Assembly: GCA_900100325.1 (NCBI GenBank)
Contig: LT629697.1
Location: 992,001 to 1,056,000 of the forward strand
From: Frankineae bacterium MT45
Lineage (GTDB): Bacteria > Actinomycetota > Actinomycetes > Mycobacteriales > Jatrophihabitantaceae
Reading direction: 5' to 3'
Length of the DNA: 64,000 nucleotides
Shown: one piece after another, positions 50,131 through 58,105 of the stretch
How the letters are laid out: every line of letters starts with the position of its first letter
How positions within the stretch are numbered: position 1 is the stretch's first letter
Notes under the pieces: model-generated
What the model saw: only the letters and a program-made list of their open reading frames with translations
The model's database searches: none
Told to the model about the DNA's origin: nothing
Made by a program: the position numbers and the translations under genes

Positions 50131-51171
50131 ATGCCGTACACACCCATGTCATTCAGAGCCGTATTCGCTTCGGCTTCGGCGGGAGTTCTGCTCGCGGCAA
50201 CGCTGCTGTTCGCTGCGCCCGCCAACGCGATCGCGCCGGACACCAGCGTGACCGTGCCGGGTCACGCACCGGCCTCGGCGAGCCGCGGCAACACCGTCGT
50301 GCCCGCGTTCCTCGAGTTTGCCTTCACCGTCTCGGACCCGTCCGTCCCGTCCAGCCTTGCCATCACCGTTCCGACCGGGGTGACGCTGTCGTCCTTCACA
50401 TCCGGCACCAGTACGATCACCTGCCCGGCTGTGGCCAACGTCTACACCTGCAACATGGGCGCGGTGGGTAGCGGACAGCTGTTCTTCAATGCGAGCGTCT
50501 CCGCCACGGTGGCGATTGGCACTGTCGAGTCGGTTCAGGCTCACATCACGACCACCGCCGGTCCGGACTCCACGCCGTCCGACAACACGGCCACCACCTC
50601 GTTCACCGTCGTCGGCAACGCCGTGCTGCACGACCTGATCACCCCCAACCCGGCCAAGGTGTCGGTCGGCGCGACGACGAAGTTGCACGCGGTGATCCGC
50701 AATGACGGCCCCGACCCCGCGACCGGCGTCTCGATGAAGATCGTCCCGCCGGGTGGGTCGGGCGTCGTCAGCTTCGTGGCGTTCAGCGCGTCGACGGTCG
50801 TGCGCAACGGCAGCAGCAATGTCACCTGGCCGGTCGGCACGATTCCGGCCGGTGCCACCGCGTCGCTCGACATCACCGTCAAGGGCCTCAAGGCCGCCAA
50901 TCGCTTCGCCATCGGGTACGGCACCACCGCCACCACCGGCGACGCGGTCTGCCACAACCGCGCCTGCGAGAGCGCGATCCTGATCAACGTGACGGCACCG
51001 GTCGCCGCCACGGCAGTCAAGGCGACGCCGGCGCCGGTCGTCGCCGACCCCGCACCGGCCGCCGAGCTGTCCAACACCGGTGCTCCGACCGGAAAGCTGA
51101 CCGGCGTCGCTGCACTGCTGCTACTGGCCGGCATCTGGCTGACCGTCGCTGGCCGGCGCCGACGGGCCTAA
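50131..51171 (+). CDS. DUF11-type surface protein with LxNTG sortase signal
   Basis: 346 residues; ATG with GGGAGG 4 nt upstream. Signal peptide 1-33 (LLFAAPANA). Two beta-sandwich domains of the DUF11/CARDB kind; the second has VSVGATTKLHAVIRNDGPDPATGVSM. C-terminus: Ala/Pro linker, LSNTGAP, helix (VAALLLLAGIWLTV) and RRRRA. In actinobacteria class E sortases cut LAxTG-type signals, so this is probably cell-wall linked. Paralogue of the next gene. Confidence 0.85.
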   Translation: MPYTPMSFRAVFASASAGVLLAATLLFAAPANAIAPDTSVTVPGHAPASASRGNTVVPAFLEFAFTVSDPSVPSSLAITVPTGVTLSSFTSGTSTITCPAVANVYTCNMGAVGSGQLFFNASVSATVAIGTVESVQAHITTTAGPDSTPSDNTATTSFTVVGNAVLHDLITPNPAKVSVGATTKLHAVIRNDGPDPATGVSMKIVPPGGSGVVSFVAFSASTVVRNGSSNVTWPVGTIPAGATASLDITVKGLKAANRFAIGYGTTATTGDAVCHNRACESAILINVTAPVAATAVKATPAPVVADPAPAAELSNTGAPTGKLTGVAALLLLAGIWLTVAGRRRRA

Positions 51172-51324: not shown

Positions 51325-52485
51325 TTGATCAAGCCGGTTATTGCCGCGTGCTTTTTAGGTCTTTCACTCGCGGGCGGGCTGGCTATGGCCGCCCCGGCCA
51401 CCGCCATCACTGCGGCCACCGCGGATCTGACGCTCAGCGTCGACCCCGCCGCTGGCTCGGACCCGGTGCTGGTGCAGCGGGGCGGGAGCATCGCCGACGT
51501 CGCGCTTCAGTTGGCCGGACCGGGTAGCTACGCCTCGACTCTGACCCTCACCGTGCCGGCCACCGCCTCGATCGCCGAGGTCGACACCGACGGCGACGCC
51601 GTCACCTGCACCCAGGCCGGGAGCATCTATACCTGCGATCTGGGCAGCCACACCGGAACCGTCAGCATCGACGTCGGCCTGCAGGTCGACGCCTCGGCCG
51701 CCATCGGAGCGACCGGCTCCGTCCAGGCCGTCGTCGCACCGGTCGGGGGAGCGGACCCTAAGCCCGCCGACAACAGTGTCTCGGTGCCCTTCGCCGTGGT
51801 CGGCAACGCCACGCTGCACCAGAGCGTGACCCCGACGACGGCGACGCTTGCGGTGAACGCGACCACGACGCTGACGGCGACCATCACCAACGACGGTCCC
51901 GACCCGGCGACCAACGTGTCGACGGAGTTCTACTTCCCCGACGCCGACACGTTCGGCATGACCGACTTCAGCCCGTCGGCCGACGTCGACGCTCAGGACC
52001 CCAGCTACGCGATCTGGAACCCGGCCACGATTCCAGCCGGTGGCAGCGTGACCCTGCAGATCACGGTGCAGGCTCTGAAGGCGGCGCAGGACTACCAGCT
52101 CAGCTACGACACGATCGCCGATGGAATCGACGCGGTCTGTGAGGGCGAGGACGACTCCTGCGTCGGGACGGTCTTGCTGACCGCGACCGGCTCCGACACC
52201 GAAGGGCCGTCCCCGTCCGTGCCGCCGGTGTCGGAGCCGGTCGGCCCGGGTCCGATCAGTTCGAGTGACCCCACCGACGCCGAGCCGACCCAGGACGTCG
52301 ACGCGCTGTCGATCACCGACACCAGCGCCGCCGGTACCGATACCGAGCTGGCCAACACCGGTGCTCCGACCGGCAAGCTGTCGCTGGTGGCCGGTGCACT
52401 GCTGATCGGTGGAGCGGCGCTGACGGTGGCCGGACGTCGCCGTGGCGCCGGACGGGGACACCACCCGCGGCACGCCGGTCTCTGA
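51325..52485 (+). CDS. DUF11-type surface protein with LANTG sortase signal
   Basis: 386 residues; TTG start with GGGGAG 6-7 nt upstream. Signal peptide 1-28 (GLAMAAPATA). Two DUF11-like domains as in the preceding gene (TTLTATITNDGPDPATNVST). Acidic Ser/Pro linker about 285-345, then ELANTGAPTGKL, helix, and RRRGAGRG tail. The LANTG motif fits class E sortase. The tandem pair probably arose by duplication and shares an upstream motif. Confidence 0.86.
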   Translation: MIKPVIAACFLGLSLAGGLAMAAPATAITAATADLTLSVDPAAGSDPVLVQRGGSIADVALQLAGPGSYASTLTLTVPATASIAEVDTDGDAVTCTQAGSIYTCDLGSHTGTVSIDVGLQVDASAAIGATGSVQAVVAPVGGADPKPADNSVSVPFAVVGNATLHQSVTPTTATLAVNATTTLTATITNDGPDPATNVSTEFYFPDADTFGMTDFSPSADVDAQDPSYAIWNPATIPAGGSVTLQITVQALKAAQDYQLSYDTIADGIDAVCEGEDDSCVGTVLLTATGSDTEGPSPSVPPVSEPVGPGPISSSDPTDAEPTQDVDALSITDTSAAGTDTELANTGAPTGKLSLVAGALLIGGAALTVAGRRRGAGRGHHPRHAGL

Positions 52486-52529
52486 TCAAACGCGTCCGGC
52501 CGCCCGCCGTCTGTGCGCGGCGGGACAAG

Positions 52530-52535
52530 TAAGCT
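52530..52535 (+). promoter_or_regulatory. -10 box of a probable leaderless transcript (mqnC)
   Basis: TAAGCT, 7 nt before ATG 52543; this decides the start over an in-frame codon 30 nt upstream. Confidence 0.55.
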
Positions 52536-52542
52536 GGCGCCC

Positions 52543-53724
52543 ATGACGCGTGAGATCTCTGAGCTGCTGCAGCGTGGGGCCGACGGCGGGCGCATCAGCC
52601 CCGAGGAAGCCCTCTACCTCTACACCGACGCGCCGCTGCACGCGCTGGGCGAGGCGGCCGACACGGTGCGCCGCCGGCGCTACCCGGAGAACATCGCGAC
52701 GTACATCATCGACCGCAACATCAACTACACCAACGTCTGCCTCACCGCGTGCAAGTTCTGCGCCTTCTACCGCGCACCGAAGCACGCCGAGGGCTGGACC
52801 CATCCGCTCGAGGAGATCCTGCGCCGCTGCGGCGAGGCCGTCGACCTCGGCGCCACCCAGATCATGCTGCAGGGCGGTCACTCGCCCGACCTGGGCATGG
52901 AGTGGTACGAGGAGACCTTCGCAGCGATCAGCCGGGAGTACCCGACGCTCACCCTGCACTCGCTCGGAGCGTCGGAGGTCATGCACATCTCGCGGACCTC
53001 GAACCTGCCCATCGACGAGGTGATCACCCGCCTGCACCGGGCCGGTCTCGCCTCCTTCGCCGGTGCCGGAGCCGAGATCCTGGTCGCTCGTCCACGCACG
53101 GCGATCGCCCCGCTGAAGGAGTCGGGCGAGAAGTGGCTGGAGGTGATGGAGACCGCGCACGGCCTGGGCGTCGAATCCACCGCGACCTTCATGATGGGCA
53201 CCGGCGAGACAAACGCCGAGCGCATCGAGCACCTGCGGATGATCCGGGACGTGCAGGACCGCACCGGCGGCTTCCGCTCCTTCATCCCGTGGACGTACCA
53301 GGCCGAGAACAACCACCTCAAGGGGCGCACTCAGGCCACCTCGCTGGAGTACCTGCGGATGATCGCGGTAGCCCGCCTCTTCTTCGACAACGTCAACCAC
53401 CTGCAGGGGTCCTGGCTGACCACGGGCAAGGACATCGGCCAGCTGACGCTCCACTACGGCGCCGACGACCTGGGGTCCGTCATGCTGGAGGAGAACGTCG
53501 TCTCCTCGGCCGGTGCCCGTCACCGCTCCAACCTCAACGAGCTCATCGACCTGATCCGCAGCGCCGGACGCATCCCGGCTCAGCGTGACACCCTTTACCG
53601 TCACCTCGTCGTGCACACCAACCCCGACGACGACCCGGTCGACAGCCGGGTCCACTCGCACTTCTCCTCGACCGCGCTCGACCCGGCCGAGCGCACGCTG
53701 CTGCCGGTCAGCGCGGCCAGCTAG
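52543..53724 (+). CDS. mqnC: Cyclic dehypoxanthinyl futalosine synthase (radical SAM)
   Basis: 393 residues. Cysteines C66-x3-C70-x2-C73 (CLTACKFCAFYR), then MLQGGHSPDLGMEWYEE, GAGAEILVARPR, TATFMMGTGETNAERIEHL, IPWTYQAENNHL, YGADDLGSVMLEENVV. Cyclises dehypoxanthine futalosine on the way to 1,4-dihydroxy-6-naphthoate. Homologous to MqnE but distinguished by the QGG(H) and GTGETxxERIEHL stretches. Followed after 15 nt by a transporter gene with its own -10 box. Confidence 0.95.
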   Translation: MTREISELLQRGADGGRISPEEALYLYTDAPLHALGEAADTVRRRRYPENIATYIIDRNINYTNVCLTACKFCAFYRAPKHAEGWTHPLEEILRRCGEAVDLGATQIMLQGGHSPDLGMEWYEETFAAISREYPTLTLHSLGASEVMHISRTSNLPIDEVITRLHRAGLASFAGAGAEILVARPRTAIAPLKESGEKWLEVMETAHGLGVESTATFMMGTGETNAERIEHLRMIRDVQDRTGGFRSFIPWTYQAENNHLKGRTQATSLEYLRMIAVARLFFDNVNHLQGSWLTTGKDIGQLTLHYGADDLGSVMLEENVVSSAGARHRSNLNELIDLIRSAGRIPAQRDTLYRHLVVHTNPDDDPVDSRVHSHFSSTALDPAERTLLPVSAAS

Positions 53725-53727
53725 CGA

Positions 53728-53733
53728 TAGCGT
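53728..53733 (+). promoter_or_regulatory. -10 box of a probable leaderless transcript (53740 gene)
   Basis: TAGCGT, 6 nt before GTG 53740, just after the mqnC stop. Confidence 0.45.
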
Positions 53734-53739
53734 GGCCGG

Positions 53740-54600
53740 GTGTCCCTGGCCGTAGCTGTTCCCTGCGCTATCGGCGCCGCACTGGCCTACGGGGCATCCA
53801 ATGCGGTGCAGCACTCGGCCGTCAACACCGGTGCCGGTCAGATCGATGCCCGCCGCCTGGTCGGGCTGCTGCGCAACCCCCGCTGGCTCGCCTCCGTCGG
53901 CGGCGACACCTGCGGCCTGCTGCTGCAGATCATCGCGCTGGCCACCGGGCCGGTCGTGCTGATCTCGCCCCTGCTGGTGCTCGCCGTCCCCGTCTCCCTC
54001 CCGGTGGGGTGGCTGCTCGGCGGTCCGCGCCCCACGTCGGCGGACTACCGCTCCTGCCTGGCCATCCTCATCGGTCTCGGCGTCTTCACCGCGCTGGTTG
54101 GTGACCCGGGAATCGGACGGGCGCTGCCGACCGGGCTCGCCCTCGTCACCGTCCTCATCGCGCTCGGACTGGGGGCGACCGCGTTCCTGCTGGTTCGGGG
54201 CCGGAGTTCGGCGGTTCGGGCCGGGGTCTACGGCGGCGTCTCCGGCGCCGGCTACGGGCTGGTCGGGGTGCTCCTCAACGCGACTACCAGCGTCTACGAC
54301 GACGGCGGCACCCACGAGTTGTTCGCGCCGCGTGGGTTGGTGCCGCTGATCGGGGTGGCGCTCGTCGGGCTGGGGTCGATGATCGTCCTCCAGATCGCGT
54401 TCCAGGTCGGGTCGCTGGCCGCGAGCTTCCCGGCCAACGAGTCGACCGCGCCGGTGGTGGCAGTTCTGCTGGGCGTGCTGCTGCTGCACCAGAAGATCCC
54501 GAACGACGTGGTGCACATCGTCACCTACCTGCTCTGCTTCGCGCTGCTCGTCTTCGGGACCGTCCGGCTGGGGCGGGCTCATGAGCGTCGGGCAGAATGA
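53740..54600 (+). CDS. DMT/EamA-like ten-helix membrane protein
   Basis: 286 residues, nine or ten helices. Begins [20 protein letters not shown], typical of actinobacterial DMT-superfamily exporters (NIPA/EamA-like); two repeats of five helices are visible, the second with [19 protein letters not shown] and the end with [27 protein letters not shown]. Substrate unknown. Set between mqnC and menG; GTG start with leaderless spacing. Confidence 0.82.
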
Positions 54601-54607
54601 GGTCACG

Positions 54608-55306
54608 ATGACGCGCGCAACCCTGGATAAGCAGCCCCGCGAAGTGGCGACGATGTTCGACGGCGTCGCCCGTCGCTACGACGTCACCAACACCGTGCTC
54701 TCCGGCGGTATGGACCGCTACTGGCGCCGGCGCACCCGGCAGGCGCTGGAGCTCCGGCCGGAGAATCGGGTCCTCGACCTCGCCGCCGGAACCGGCGTCT
54801 CGACGGCGGAGTTGGCTCGCTCCGGGGCCACCGCGATCGCCTGCGATTTCTCGATCGGGATGCTGCGGGCCGGACGTTCGCGACGCGCCTCCCTGCCGTT
54901 CGTCGCCGGCGACGCCCTGCACCTTCCCTTCGCCGACGAGGTCTTCGACTCGGCGACGATCTCCTTCGGGCTGCGCAATGTCGCAGACGTCGACCAGGCG
55001 CTGCGCGAGCTGGCCCGGGTGGTGCGCCCGGGCGGGCGACTGGTGATCTGCGAATTCAGCCGCCCGGTCTTCTCGCCGTTTCGCCACGTTTATATGAACT
55101 ATCTGATGCGGGCGCTGCCGGCGATCGCCCGGCGGGTGTCGTCGAATCCGGACGCCTACATCTACCTCGCCGAGTCGATCCGCAGCTGGCCCGACCAGAC
55201 CGCGCTCGCGCAGAAGGTCGCGGCGGCCGGCTGGGGTGAGGTGCAGTGGCGCAATCTCACCGGTGGGATCGTCGCACTGCATCGGGCTCAGCGTCCGGCG
55301 GCGTAG
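54608..55306 (+). CDS. menG: Demethylmenaquinone methyltransferase
   Basis: 232 residues from ATG 54608, with GAGG 5 nt upstream; this gives the family start [23 protein letters not shown] motif [17 protein letters not shown], then [34 protein letters not shown] and [15 protein letters not shown]. Last step of menaquinone synthesis, methylating the naphthoquinone ring. 7 nt after the transporter stop. Confidence 0.94.
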
Positions 55307-55384: not shown

Positions 55385-55504
55385 ATGCAGGAGATTTGGG
55401 CGATGAATTCGCGGGTCCCCTGCACGAAGCGTCGACGGCGCACTAGGTTGGATGGGGAGGCCGGATCTCGCCGGCCCGGATCCTCTTCCTGGAGCGCAAA
55501 ATGA
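55385..55504 (+). CDS. Possible short upstream ORF overlapping the repeat-peptide start
   Basis: 39 codons from ATG 55385 to a TGA inside the next ATG (ATGA overlap). Arg/Ser-rich product without recognisable features. The overlap suggests coupling but codon use is not convincing, so this may be chance. The region also holds an 8-bp inverted repeat CTCCTGCA/TGCAGGAG (55354, 55386). Confidence 0.2.
   Translation: MQEIWAMNSRVPCTKRRRRTRLDGEAGSRRPGSSSWSAK
55459..55476 (+). promoter_or_regulatory. Hairpin ahead of the repeat-peptide ribosome site
   Basis: GGCCGG-atctcg-CCGGCC, perfect 6-bp stem, ending 13 nt before the GGAG of the 55501 gene. Could tune its translation. Confidence 0.35.
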
Positions 55505-55797
55505 GCATCAACGACGACGACATCACCACGGCCGACGGCGACGCAGCCGGTGACGGTGGCGCTGACGGTGCGGCCGACGCCGGTGGCGACGGTGGCGCTG
55601 GCTTCCACGACGGTGGTGCCGATGGTGGCGCGGCCGGTGGCGACGGTGGCGCTGATGGCGGCGCCGACTCCGGTGACGGCGGCGCTGACGGTGCGGCCGA
55701 CGCCGGTGGCGACGGTGGCGCTGGCTTCCACGACGGTGGTGCCGATGGTGGCGCGGCCGGTGGCGACGGTGGCGCTGACGGTGGCGCCGACTCCTGA
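55501..55797 (+). CDS. 98-residue Gly/Ala/Asp repeat protein, candidate substrate or precursor peptide
   Basis: ATG with GGAG 6 nt upstream. A 16-residue leader-like start (MSINDDDITTADGDAA) is followed by two nearly identical 41-residue units (residues 17-57 and 58-98) made of Gly, Ala and Asp with one GFHDGG and one DS per unit. No signal peptide, no helix. 19 nt separate it from a JmjC/cupin oxygenase gene that is itself overlapped by a Suc_Fer-like protein gene. I know of no named family. It could be a modified peptide precursor, a structural Asp-rich protein, or a metal-binding protein; the conserved His-Asp in each unit would be a natural hydroxylation site. Confidence 0.7.
   Translation: MSINDDDITTADGDAAGDGGADGAADAGGDGGAGFHDGGADGGAAGGDGGADGGADSGDGGADGAADAGGDGGAGFHDGGADGGAAGGDGGADGGADS
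55549..55794 (+). repeat. Two-copy 123-bp tandem repeat
   Basis: Copies at 55549-55671 and 55672-55794 differ at only a few third positions (for example GGTGGC/GGCGGC and GATGGC/GACGGT). Exactly 41 codons each, so copy number can change without breaking the frame. Confidence 0.9.
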
Positions 55798-55816
55798 CCT
55801 GAGCTAGTCGCTGCAA

Positions 55817-57136
55817 GTGACTGAGAATGCCAACACCGACGGGTCGGCCGCGCTCACGCCGGCCGACCCGATCGTTGACCTGACGGCGCCGACCCTCGCG
55901 CGCTGCATATCGATCTCCAAGGGTGAATTCTCCGATAAAAACTGGGGAAACCGTCCGTTGCTGACTCGTGGCGTCGAGCTACCGGCGAGCTTCGCCGATC
56001 TCTTCGACGCCGCCGCGGCCGATGAGCTCGTCTCGCGACGTGGGCTGCGCACGCCGTTCCTGCGGATGGCCAAGGACGGGTCGGTGCTGGACTCCAAGCG
56101 CTTCACTCGGAGTGGGGGAGCCGGGGCCACCGCGCCGGATCAGGTCGCCGACGACCGGGTGCTGGAGCAGCTGGCCGGCGGCTCCACGCTGGTGCTGCAG
56201 GCGCTACACCGCACCTGGCCGCCGCTGGTCGAGTTCGGCTCGTCGCTGGCGGCCGAGCTCGGGCACCCGGTGCAGATCAACGCCTACATCACCCCGCCGC
56301 AGAATCAGGGGTTCGCCGCTCACTACGACGTCCATGACGTCTTCGTGCTGCAGATCAGCGGACGCAAGCAGTGGCGCATCCACGAGCCGGTGCTCGTCGA
56401 TCCGCTCCCCGATCAGCCCTGGGAGCAGCGCCGGGAGGCCGTCGTCGAGCGTTCTCGCGAAGAGGCGATCATCGACACCGTGCTGGAGCCCGGAGATTCG
56501 CTATATCTTCCCAGGGGATTCCTGCATTCGGCGAGTGCGCTGGGAGAGACCTCCATCCACCTGACGGTGGGCGTGCACCCGATCACCCGAGCCTCGCTCA
56601 TCACCCACCTCCTCACCGCGGCCCGGCGTGACGATGCCCTGCGCGCCTCGCTTCCACTCGGCGCCGACCTCGGTGATCCGGACGCACTCGGCCCGCACCT
56701 GGCGACGACGGTTGAGGCGCTGCAGCAGTGGCTTGACCAGGTCGGGGCCGTCGACGTGGCTCGGCAGTTGGACGGGGAGCTCACCCGGGCAATGCGCCCG
56801 GCGCCGCTCTCCCCGCTGGCCCAGCTGGCCGCCGCTGATGCGCTCACGCACTCCGACTCCCTGCGCCTGCGCCCAGCGCTGCGGGCGCGCTCGACCATTG
56901 AGGACGAGAAGCTCCGCCTCCGGCTGGTCGACCGGACGATCTCGCTGCCGGTCGCCGCCGAGGCCGCCGTCAAGTGCATCCTCACCGGCGCCCCCTTCAC
57001 CCCGGCCGAGCTGCCTGGCCTCGACGCCGAGGAGCAGTTGGTGGTGGCCCGACGGCTGCTGCGCGACGGTGTCGTGGTGCCGGTGTCGGGCTCGGCCGTG
57101 CCGCCGTTGGGCTCGGCCCTGCCGCCGACGGTATGA
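55817..57136 (+). CDS. JmjC/cupin_4-type Fe(II)/2-oxoglutarate oxygenase
   Basis: 439 residues, GTG start. Iron triad H169-x-D171 (AAHYDVHDVFVLQISG) and H237 (LPRGFLHSASA); AYITPPQNQGF and GRKQWRIHEP are typical of the ribosomal-oxygenase branch (YcfD/NO66/MINA-like). Residues about 260-430 form the C-terminal helical and winged-helix-like part used for dimerisation in that branch (DRTISLPVAAEAAVKCIL). Known members hydroxylate Arg or His of ribosomal proteins. Here the gene directly follows the repeat-peptide gene and overlaps the ferredoxin-like gene (ATGA), suggesting another substrate. Confidence 0.88.
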   Translation: MTENANTDGSAALTPADPIVDLTAPTLARCISISKGEFSDKNWGNRPLLTRGVELPASFADLFDAAAADELVSRRGLRTPFLRMAKDGSVLDSKRFTRSGGAGATAPDQVADDRVLEQLAGGSTLVLQALHRTWPPLVEFGSSLAAELGHPVQINAYITPPQNQGFAAHYDVHDVFVLQISGRKQWRIHEPVLVDPLPDQPWEQRREAVVERSREEAIIDTVLEPGDSLYLPRGFLHSASALGETSIHLTVGVHPITRASLITHLLTAARRDDALRASLPLGADLGDPDALGPHLATTVEALQQWLDQVGAVDVARQLDGELTRAMRPAPLSPLAQLAAADALTHSDSLRLRPALRARSTIEDEKLRLRLVDRTISLPVAAEAAVKCILTGAPFTPAELPGLDAEEQLVVARRLLRDGVVVPVSGSAVPPLGSALPPTV

Positions 57137-58044
57137 CGGCGAGCCACGGTGCACCGCGGCCCCGGGAGACCCTGGATCGCTGCGCGCTGCGGGCCCAGCT
57201 GCGGGGCGACCCGATGCTCGGCACCGCGTTCCCGGCCTACCGGCTGCTGCTGGTCGAGCAGCCCGGCCCCTGGGGGCATGCCGGGCTGACCGAGTCGCAC
57301 TTTGACCGGGAGGTGGCTCAGCAGCTGTACCGGCGCACCGAAGCAGCCGGAATGCGAATGCTGGCGATCCGCCGTCCGGGGCGTACCCCCGCCGGCCAGC
57401 CGCGGATCTGGGCCTACGTCGACACCCGTCCCGGTCGGGAGGCGCTGCGCGTCGGCGAGTACACCGAGGAGCGGGAGCTCCTCGACGTTCCGCTGGACGG
57501 GAGTGCCGGAGTCGCCGACCCGAACCCGCTCTACCTCGTCTGCGCCCACAGCAAGCACGATGCCTGCTGCGCGCTGCGTGGGCGTCCCGTTGCGGCGGCG
57601 CTGGCCGAGGCCCGTCCGGGACGCGTCTGGGAGTGCAGCCACGTCGGCGGGGAGCGCTTCGCGGCGAACGTGCTGGTGCTCCCGTCGGGGATGCTCTACG
57701 GACGGGTGCTGCCGTTCGCGGCGGCGGAGTTCGCGGACGCGGCCGACAGTGGCGAGGTGATCGGCGCCCTGCTGCGCGGTCGGGTCGGCTTCACGCCGCA
57801 GGCCCAGGCCGCGATGGCCTTCGCCTACGAGCACCTGGCGCTGCGGGAGATTGATCAGCTCAGGCTGGTCAGTGCGTCGCCGGTACGGAGTGGAGACGCG
57901 CTGGTGCGAGTGGCCGGACCGCATGGCCTCATCGACATCACGGTGCGGGTCGAACGGCGCTCCGGTGAGGGCCTCACCTGCGCCAAGAGCGGCCTCGGCT
58001 CCTACTTCTCCTACCGGGCGATCAGCGCGACCGCCGTCGACTAA
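57133..58044 (+). CDS. Suc_Fer-like (Apd1-type) [2Fe-2S] protein
   Basis: 303 residues, ATG inside the oxygenase stop. Thioredoxin-like ferredoxin fold; YLVCAHSKHDACCALRG gives C137, H139 and C145/C146, and CSHVGGERFAANVLVLPSGMLYGRV gives H170. This is the sucrase/ferredoxin-like family, in which yeast Apd1 binds [2Fe-2S] with Cys and His ligands. The C-terminal ~70 residues add a small beta domain ending in Cys-containing TCAKSGLGSYFSY. Possible electron donor or iron partner of the oxygenase. A strong terminator follows. Confidence 0.85.
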   Translation: MTASHGAPRPRETLDRCALRAQLRGDPMLGTAFPAYRLLLVEQPGPWGHAGLTESHFDREVAQQLYRRTEAAGMRMLAIRRPGRTPAGQPRIWAYVDTRPGREALRVGEYTEERELLDVPLDGSAGVADPNPLYLVCAHSKHDACCALRGRPVAAALAEARPGRVWECSHVGGERFAANVLVLPSGMLYGRVLPFAAAEFADAADSGEVIGALLRGRVGFTPQAQAAMAFAYEHLALREIDQLRLVSASPVRSGDALVRVAGPHGLIDITVRVERRSGEGLTCAKSGLGSYFSYRAISATAVD

Positions 58045-58063: not shown

Positions 58064-58105
58064 TTTTGGCAATCTGGCACGGAATCGCGTGCCATATTGC
58101 CAAAA
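58064..58105. terminator. Bidirectional hairpin terminator
   Basis: TTTTGGCAATcTGGCACG pairs with CGTGCCAtATTGCCAAAA (17 of 18 pairs, 6-nt loop). The arms start with TTTT and end with AAAA, so each strand reads T-rich on its exit. Lies between the convergent Suc_Fer-like and pyrophosphatase genes. Confidence 0.85.

Follow-up and report, generated by a model that had tools for sequence, protein, structure and literature searches.

What does a bacterial homolog of the human ribosomal oxygenases act on when its gene directly follows that of a short, acidic repeat peptide? Such homologs are usually presumed to act on the ribosome. The question is raised by a 64,000-nucleotide stretch of Frankineae bacterium MT45 DNA (contig LT629697.1, positions 992,001 to 1,056,000; hereafter the window, whose coordinates are used throughout), which belongs to a single-contig genome of 4.23 Mb. 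Here, the genes for an Asp-repeat, precursor-like peptide (98 aa, 55501..55797), a NO66/MINA53-type JmjC oxygenase (439 aa, 55817..57136) and a thioredoxin-like [2Fe-2S] protein of the Suc_Fer family (303 aa, 57133..58044) form one tight operon, in that order and all on the (+) strand. A 19-nt gap separates the stop codon of the peptide gene from the GTG start of the oxygenase gene, which in turn overlaps the Suc_Fer gene by 4 nt. An initial annotation, made from the sequence alone, had read the locus as a candidate peptide-modification cassette; its gene layout, its 98-residue protein of two GFHDGG-bearing units and its intact H-x-D...H triad in the oxygenase are all borne out by the open reading frame (ORF) coordinates, by Tandem Repeats Finder and by the alignment of homologs. 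We think it probable, with ample room for doubt, that the operon is a cassette resembling those for ribosomally synthesized and post-translationally modified peptides (RiPPs), in which the peptide is the dedicated substrate, the NO66-type oxygenase hydroxylates the Asp residues of its repeats, and the Suc_Fer protein assists.

Is the pairing of peptide and oxygenase more than a local coincidence? Relatives repeat the gene order peptide, oxygenase, Suc_Fer. A scan of named-species genomes returned 80 loci, every one in Actinomycetota, with hosts among the Microbacteriaceae, Cellulomonadaceae, Nocardioidaceae, Kribbellaceae, Geodermatophilaceae, Micromonosporaceae, Pseudonocardiaceae, Dietziaceae and others; the peptide lies directly upstream of the oxygenase in all of them except those cut by contig ends. 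An automatic composition filter recognised the peptide in 112 of the 128 loci with enough upstream sequence (repeats included) and let through only four ORFs elsewhere over 1,219 kb of flanking sequence. Of its 16 misses, 15 show the peptide by eye, the remaining locus (L123) having only a divergent acidic ORF; at locus L105 the peptide is present and interrupted by Ns. With same-genome duplicates removed, the peptide is found directly upstream and on the same strand in 120 of 121 distinct loci. No upstream peptide was seen at three paralogs that are more distant (L026, L029 and L031), and plasmids yielded just distant oxygenase homologs, all below 60% identity. The initial annotation had proposed this very survey of genome neighbourhoods, and had named as the outcome that would speak against it that no such ORF is ever found beside homologous oxygenase and Suc_Fer pairs; the result is strongly opposite, for a short repeat ORF recurs, its leader is kept and its repeat number varies. 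A leader-bearing precursor gene that recurs beside an enzyme gene is what marks RiPP systems, and it is what we find here. Two fragmented assemblies (L142, G003:C190; L143, G010:C168) break in or beside the repeat peptide, and such breaks will therefore lead to under-counting in draft genomes.

The peptide itself counts 39 Gly, 23 Ala, 23 Asp and 2 His among its 98 residues, with no Cys, Arg or Lys. It begins with a leader-like N-terminus, MSINDDDITT (55501..55530), whose consensus x-[LI]-x-D-D-D-[IM]-x-T is present in 103 of 115 scored loci phylum-wide (18 of the 115 leaders were scored by eye). Two tandem units follow (55547..55669 and 55670..55792; Tandem Repeats Finder, period 123, 97% match), each of 123 bp and 41 residues with one GFHDGG, and all three sites at which they differ are third codon positions. 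A DNA pattern of the GADG type has six matches in the genome; because all six sit within this one ORF and reversed-pattern controls give none, the repeat pattern is far beyond chance. Apparent stray clusters of the pattern in two relatives proved to be peptides of this kind located where contigs end. Across loci, the core ranges from 42 to 176 aa and from 6 to 34 Asp. Loci from other classes carry peptides in the same slot that lack the Gly/Ala pattern and have an Asp every 2-4 residues (e.g., MSDERSLSDEDINTVTGG...ADADAADADGVDGDTVDAVDGDAADAVDGD), and these keep the short leader x-D-[DE]-[DE]-[IM]-x-T. A third core type, with ADGTDQGVxGGTYGPRDA repeats behind the same DDDI leader, occurs at one locus without Suc_Fer (L131, genome G282). 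Searches of Pfam and NCBIfam with the peptide gave no model and nothing beyond chance even at E=10, and we accordingly rejected membership of a known peptide family. It is also undescribed in the open-access literature that we searched for its repeat motifs and for JmjC, RiPP, Asp and actinomycete topics, prior description elsewhere being possible.

The peptide is under purifying selection. Compared with a sister species, its 98 codons show 26 synonymous and 2 nonsynonymous differences, and it is 98% identical where the oxygenase is 78% identical. Over 33 pairs of equal length, synonymous differences number 874 and nonsynonymous ones 354, that is, 71% synonymous versus 26% expected for random changes; these pairs share lineages and include only peptides at least 70% identical, so that the totals are neither independent nor unselected counts. 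In 27 of the 33 pairs, conservation of the peptide exceeds that of the enzyme. The synonymous excess thus identifies a conserved protein rather than repeat noise at the level of DNA, and the core does not behave like that of a fast-diversifying antimicrobial.

The oxygenase matches PF08007 (JmjC_2, E=1.1e-28) and, over its full length, a NO66 profile (E=3e-35). Its AlphaFold2 (AF2) model (predicted local distance difference test score 86) has NO66 (4e4h) as best Foldseek match, again over the full length including the C-terminal winged helix (E=4e-27). It displays what defines the family: an HxD...H triad, and a JmjC domain followed by a C-terminal winged-helix domain. The Fe(II) ligands, H169 and D171 (codons at 56321..56329, +), which align with the HYD of NO66, and H237 (56525..56527, +), which aligns with the His of PRGFIH, are invariant in 17 homologs. 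Also invariant are the Lys of the GRK-W motif and Tyr157, the equivalent of NO66 Tyr328. Triad, GRK-W Lys, winged helix, full-length profile and fold are thus shared with NO66 (RIOX1), MINA53 (RIOX2) and YcfD, a group whose known substrates are ribosomal proteins, hydroxylated at His (Rpl8, Rpl27a) or Arg (L16). The cassette enzyme differs from NO66 in that its gene stands beside that of an acidic repeat peptide and in that an invariant Gly252 replaces Ser421, a residue expected of the ribosomal His oxygenases NO66 and MINA53 (both NO66 equivalences are numbered by counting along the alignment). NCBIfam holds no model for the cassette oxygenase or for the Suc_Fer protein.

Given the phylum-wide pairing, the common leader and the variable number of repeats, the peptide is very probably the partner or substrate of the oxygenase, as the initial annotation had suggested. 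Which residue might then be modified? That annotation had named His or Asp, and the choice of His fares poorly. Among 105 peptides, Asp is in every core, most commonly at a spacing of four residues, preceded by Ala in 63% of cases and followed by Gly in 72%; Cys, Lys and Arg occur rarely or not at all. No residue but Asp is both universal and regularly spaced, and in distant clades only the Asp repeats and the leader are retained. His is missing from 30 of the 105 cores. Moreover, NO66 Tyr328 and Ser421 hydrogen-bond the target His (PMC9994133). Because of its absence from these cores and the loss of Ser421, His is an unlikely target, and we rejected it as a conserved one on both counts. We infer that Asp is the first-choice target. 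Both parts of the proposed chemistry have a precedent. FIH (the HIF asparaginyl hydroxylase), a JmjC-fold hydroxylase with several repeat proteins among its substrates, hydroxylates Asp in ankyrin repeats (PMC4543633), and BipG, the JmjC enzyme of biphenomycin biosynthesis, hydroxylates ornithine in the precursor of a RiPP (PMC12707348). The substrates of FIH are broad and encoded elsewhere in the genome, there is no cognate peptide gene, and its sequence relation to the cassette oxygenase is weak (E=0.007). The target of BipG is part of a short antibiotic core, and its multi-enzyme cluster has neither Asp repeats nor Suc_Fer.

Among the alternatives, the one that survives best keeps the peptide as substrate and changes the residue or the reaction, to hydroxylation of His or Pro, oxidation of Ala or Gly at C-alpha with cleavage of the backbone, or cross-linking. 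His stands beside Asp in many repeats (HDGGADG) and occurs in 71% of cores, Pro occurs in 90%, NO66 and MINA53 are themselves His hydroxylases, and the HEXXH enzymes of RiPP clusters use 2-oxoglutarate to oxidise small residues and to cut the backbone (PMC12636437). The composition of the His-free cores, the little besides Asp that distant clades share, and the Gly in place of the His-contacting Ser421 speak for Asp instead, and we regard this alternative as unlikely, if still worth keeping in view.

Conceivably, the enzyme is an ordinary ribosomal oxygenase and the peptide its regulator, inhibitor or chaperone. The closest solved relatives are ribosomal oxygenases, and a polyacidic peptide could fill a groove built for basic proteins. 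The regular Asp repeats, their varying copy number and the exclusive retention of Asp spacing in distant clades look like serial target sites, and the His-binding Ser of NO66 is lost. In addition, a phylum-wide sample of 296 Actinomycetota genomes contains any oxygenase match in just 47, and an enzyme missing from most of the sampled genomes is unlike one that maintains the ribosome. A ribosomal function with a non-substrate peptide is thus doubtful in our eyes.

Still less probable is a scenario whereby the peptide binds or buffers metal through unmodified carboxylates, with the oxygenase and the ferredoxin as co-regulated iron-dependent enzymes that make no direct contact with it. The high density of Asp would suit it, and all three proteins could serve iron or redox homeostasis; a fixed position directly upstream of one oxygenase and a common leader motif rather suggest a direct link between enzyme and substrate. 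RTX calcium-binding repeats are likewise tandem and rich in Gly and Asp, but the nonapeptide motif of RTX has a hydrophobic position that the four-residue spacing seen here lacks, and we rejected them, as there is no Pfam match. That the ORF is an artefact of low-complexity, GC-rich, tandemly repeated DNA is refuted, to the point of being negligible, by strong constraint on the protein, by recurrence at one specific position and by the lack of a second copy of the pattern in the genome.

How might a cassette that hydroxylates Asp work? We envision that the acidic leader (x-DDD[IM]-x-T) is probably bound by the C-terminal winged helix of the oxygenase (residues about 345-422, 56849..57082, +, delimited by AF2 secondary structure), while the Fe(II)/2-oxoglutarate site would hydroxylate Asp, most likely at C-3, serially along the Asp-Gly repeats. 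Of all columns in the oxygenase alignment, residue 417 within this candidate leader-binding domain (57065-57067) shows the strongest association with the leader motif: it is acidic in all 103 motif-bearing loci and non-acidic in 9 of the 12 without the motif, which is no more than suggestive of leader reading. The Suc_Fer protein would be an accessory that perhaps keeps the iron of the oxygenase reduced. The product would be an intracellular chain, densely carboxylated and hydroxylated and suited to hard metal ions such as Fe and Ca, although metal binding is a guess from chemistry. The leaders are unlike secretion signals and the clustering of neighbours, on noisy ORF calls, showed no common protease or exporter, for which reason the product is probably intracellular. 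Since the cores are conserved as well, an intracellular polyanionic product, possibly metal-binding, is likelier than an antibiotic; a classical antimicrobial RiPP is disfavoured on the same grounds.

Several points weigh against hydroxylation of the peptide at Asp by a leader-reading oxygenase. For the closest characterised relatives, the hydroxylated residue is a His or Arg in a basic ribosomal protein, and an acidic substrate would be a departure. Clustering of the neighbours at the 80 named-species loci, based on noisy ORF calls, found no common protease or transporter, only peptide, oxygenase and Suc_Fer being common, and the cores are conserved rather than hypervariable, unlike those of a typical RiPP cluster. 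Suc_Fer is absent from Micromonosporaceae loci and was gained or lost several times across the tree. The association of residue 417 with the leader amounts to 4-6 changes on the tree, and the independent pairs (2:0) are not significant. Finally, the resemblance of the winged helix to a RiPP recognition element (RRE) is a lead from the literature: a recent survey notes eukaryotic proteins in which an RRE-like fold is joined to a PF08007 JmjC domain, along with bacterial homologs that occur in RiPP-like surroundings, and the cassette family is undescribed there (PMC12710340).

If a cassette of this kind is indeed at work, bacterial homologs of human ribosomal oxygenases would have a non-ribosomal role, and one large clade of them would gain an obvious dedicated substrate, which makes the specificity of the enzyme directly testable. 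A gene-encoded chain in which up to dozens of Asp residues are modified would be a new type of biopolymer. We put forward only tentatively, as a possibility that may well not hold, the broader idea of a phylum-wide RiPP-like class of multi-beta-hydroxyaspartate chains, made by NO66-type oxygenases with leader reading through the winged helix and conserved as intracellular metal-binding polymers. Our findings suggest that the pairing of Asp-repeat peptide and oxygenase is new, RiPP-like modification by a 2-oxoglutarate oxygenase being already known in kind. Many common actinomycetes that live in soil or with plants (Micromonospora, Geodermatophilus, Agromyces, Curtobacterium, Kribbella and Amycolatopsis) carry the cassette, and this wide spread suggests a real physiological role that the literature searched does not name.

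The Suc_Fer protein is a frequent partner. It belongs to PF06999 (E=7.9e-18), and residues 129-217 of its AF2 model match the Aquifex thioredoxin-like [2Fe-2S] ferredoxin 1m2a (VIA Z 11.4, 86 residues, root-mean-square deviation 2.1), so that the central domain has the thioredoxin-like ferredoxin fold; plain Foldseek with the same model gave no match. Among the sampled genomes, Suc_Fer accompanies a cassette-type oxygenase in 38 of 41 and occurs in 39 of 255 others (Fisher p 7e-23, uncorrected for relatedness), the latter group including six genomes that hold only distant paralogs. At 95 of the 120 distinct loci whose sequence reaches far enough, its gene directly follows that of the oxygenase. 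The initial annotation had suggested a possible electron or iron helper; the protein is common yet dispensable, and its absence from the Micromonosporaceae loci marks it as an accessory rather than a core part. Its family also includes Apd1 and Aim32, with which it shares the thioredoxin-like [2Fe-2S] domain and the CX8C half of the cluster motif. The full motif of Aim32, CX8C...HX3H, is bis-histidinyl (PMC8482512). The cassette protein has C137-X8-C146 and H170-X3-E174 (57541-57656), and aligned homologs keep CX8C...HX3[ED], with H170 conserved, in place of CX8C...HX3H. Lacking the second His of the bis-histidinyl type, actinobacterial Suc_Fer proteins may therefore have a different set of [2Fe-2S] ligands, a possibility read from the alignment.

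Beyond the operon, an 18-bp-arm palindrome (TTTTGGCAATCTGGCACG-N6-CGTGCCATATTGCCAAAA, 58064..58105), both arms of which match one pattern, lies between the convergent Suc_Fer and pyrophosphatase genes. The initial annotation had placed a strong terminator here. The hairpin is indeed very stable (dG -52.4 kcal/mol for the region, z -7.4), but no U tract follows it and a terminator scan finds no terminator, and we rejected a canonical intrinsic terminator at the 3' end of the operon; a non-canonical bidirectional terminator is possible. Elsewhere in the genome there is a single further pair of similar arms, each with one mismatch (C1:311900-311935). Just upstream of the cassette (52513-55306, +) lie mqnC of the futalosine pathway to menaquinone, a DMT-type permease gene and menG, which encodes demethylmenaquinone methyltransferase. 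The link between menG and the cassette is probably accidental, because menG adjoins the cassette in many, not all, relatives of the same family and in only 2 of the 80 named-species loci. Further upstream, tandem paralogous DUF11 proteins (50131-51171 and 51325-52485, +) end in LSNTG and LANTG, respectively, followed by a hydrophobic stretch and an Arg tail, looking like sortase-anchored surface proteins of the LAXTG type.

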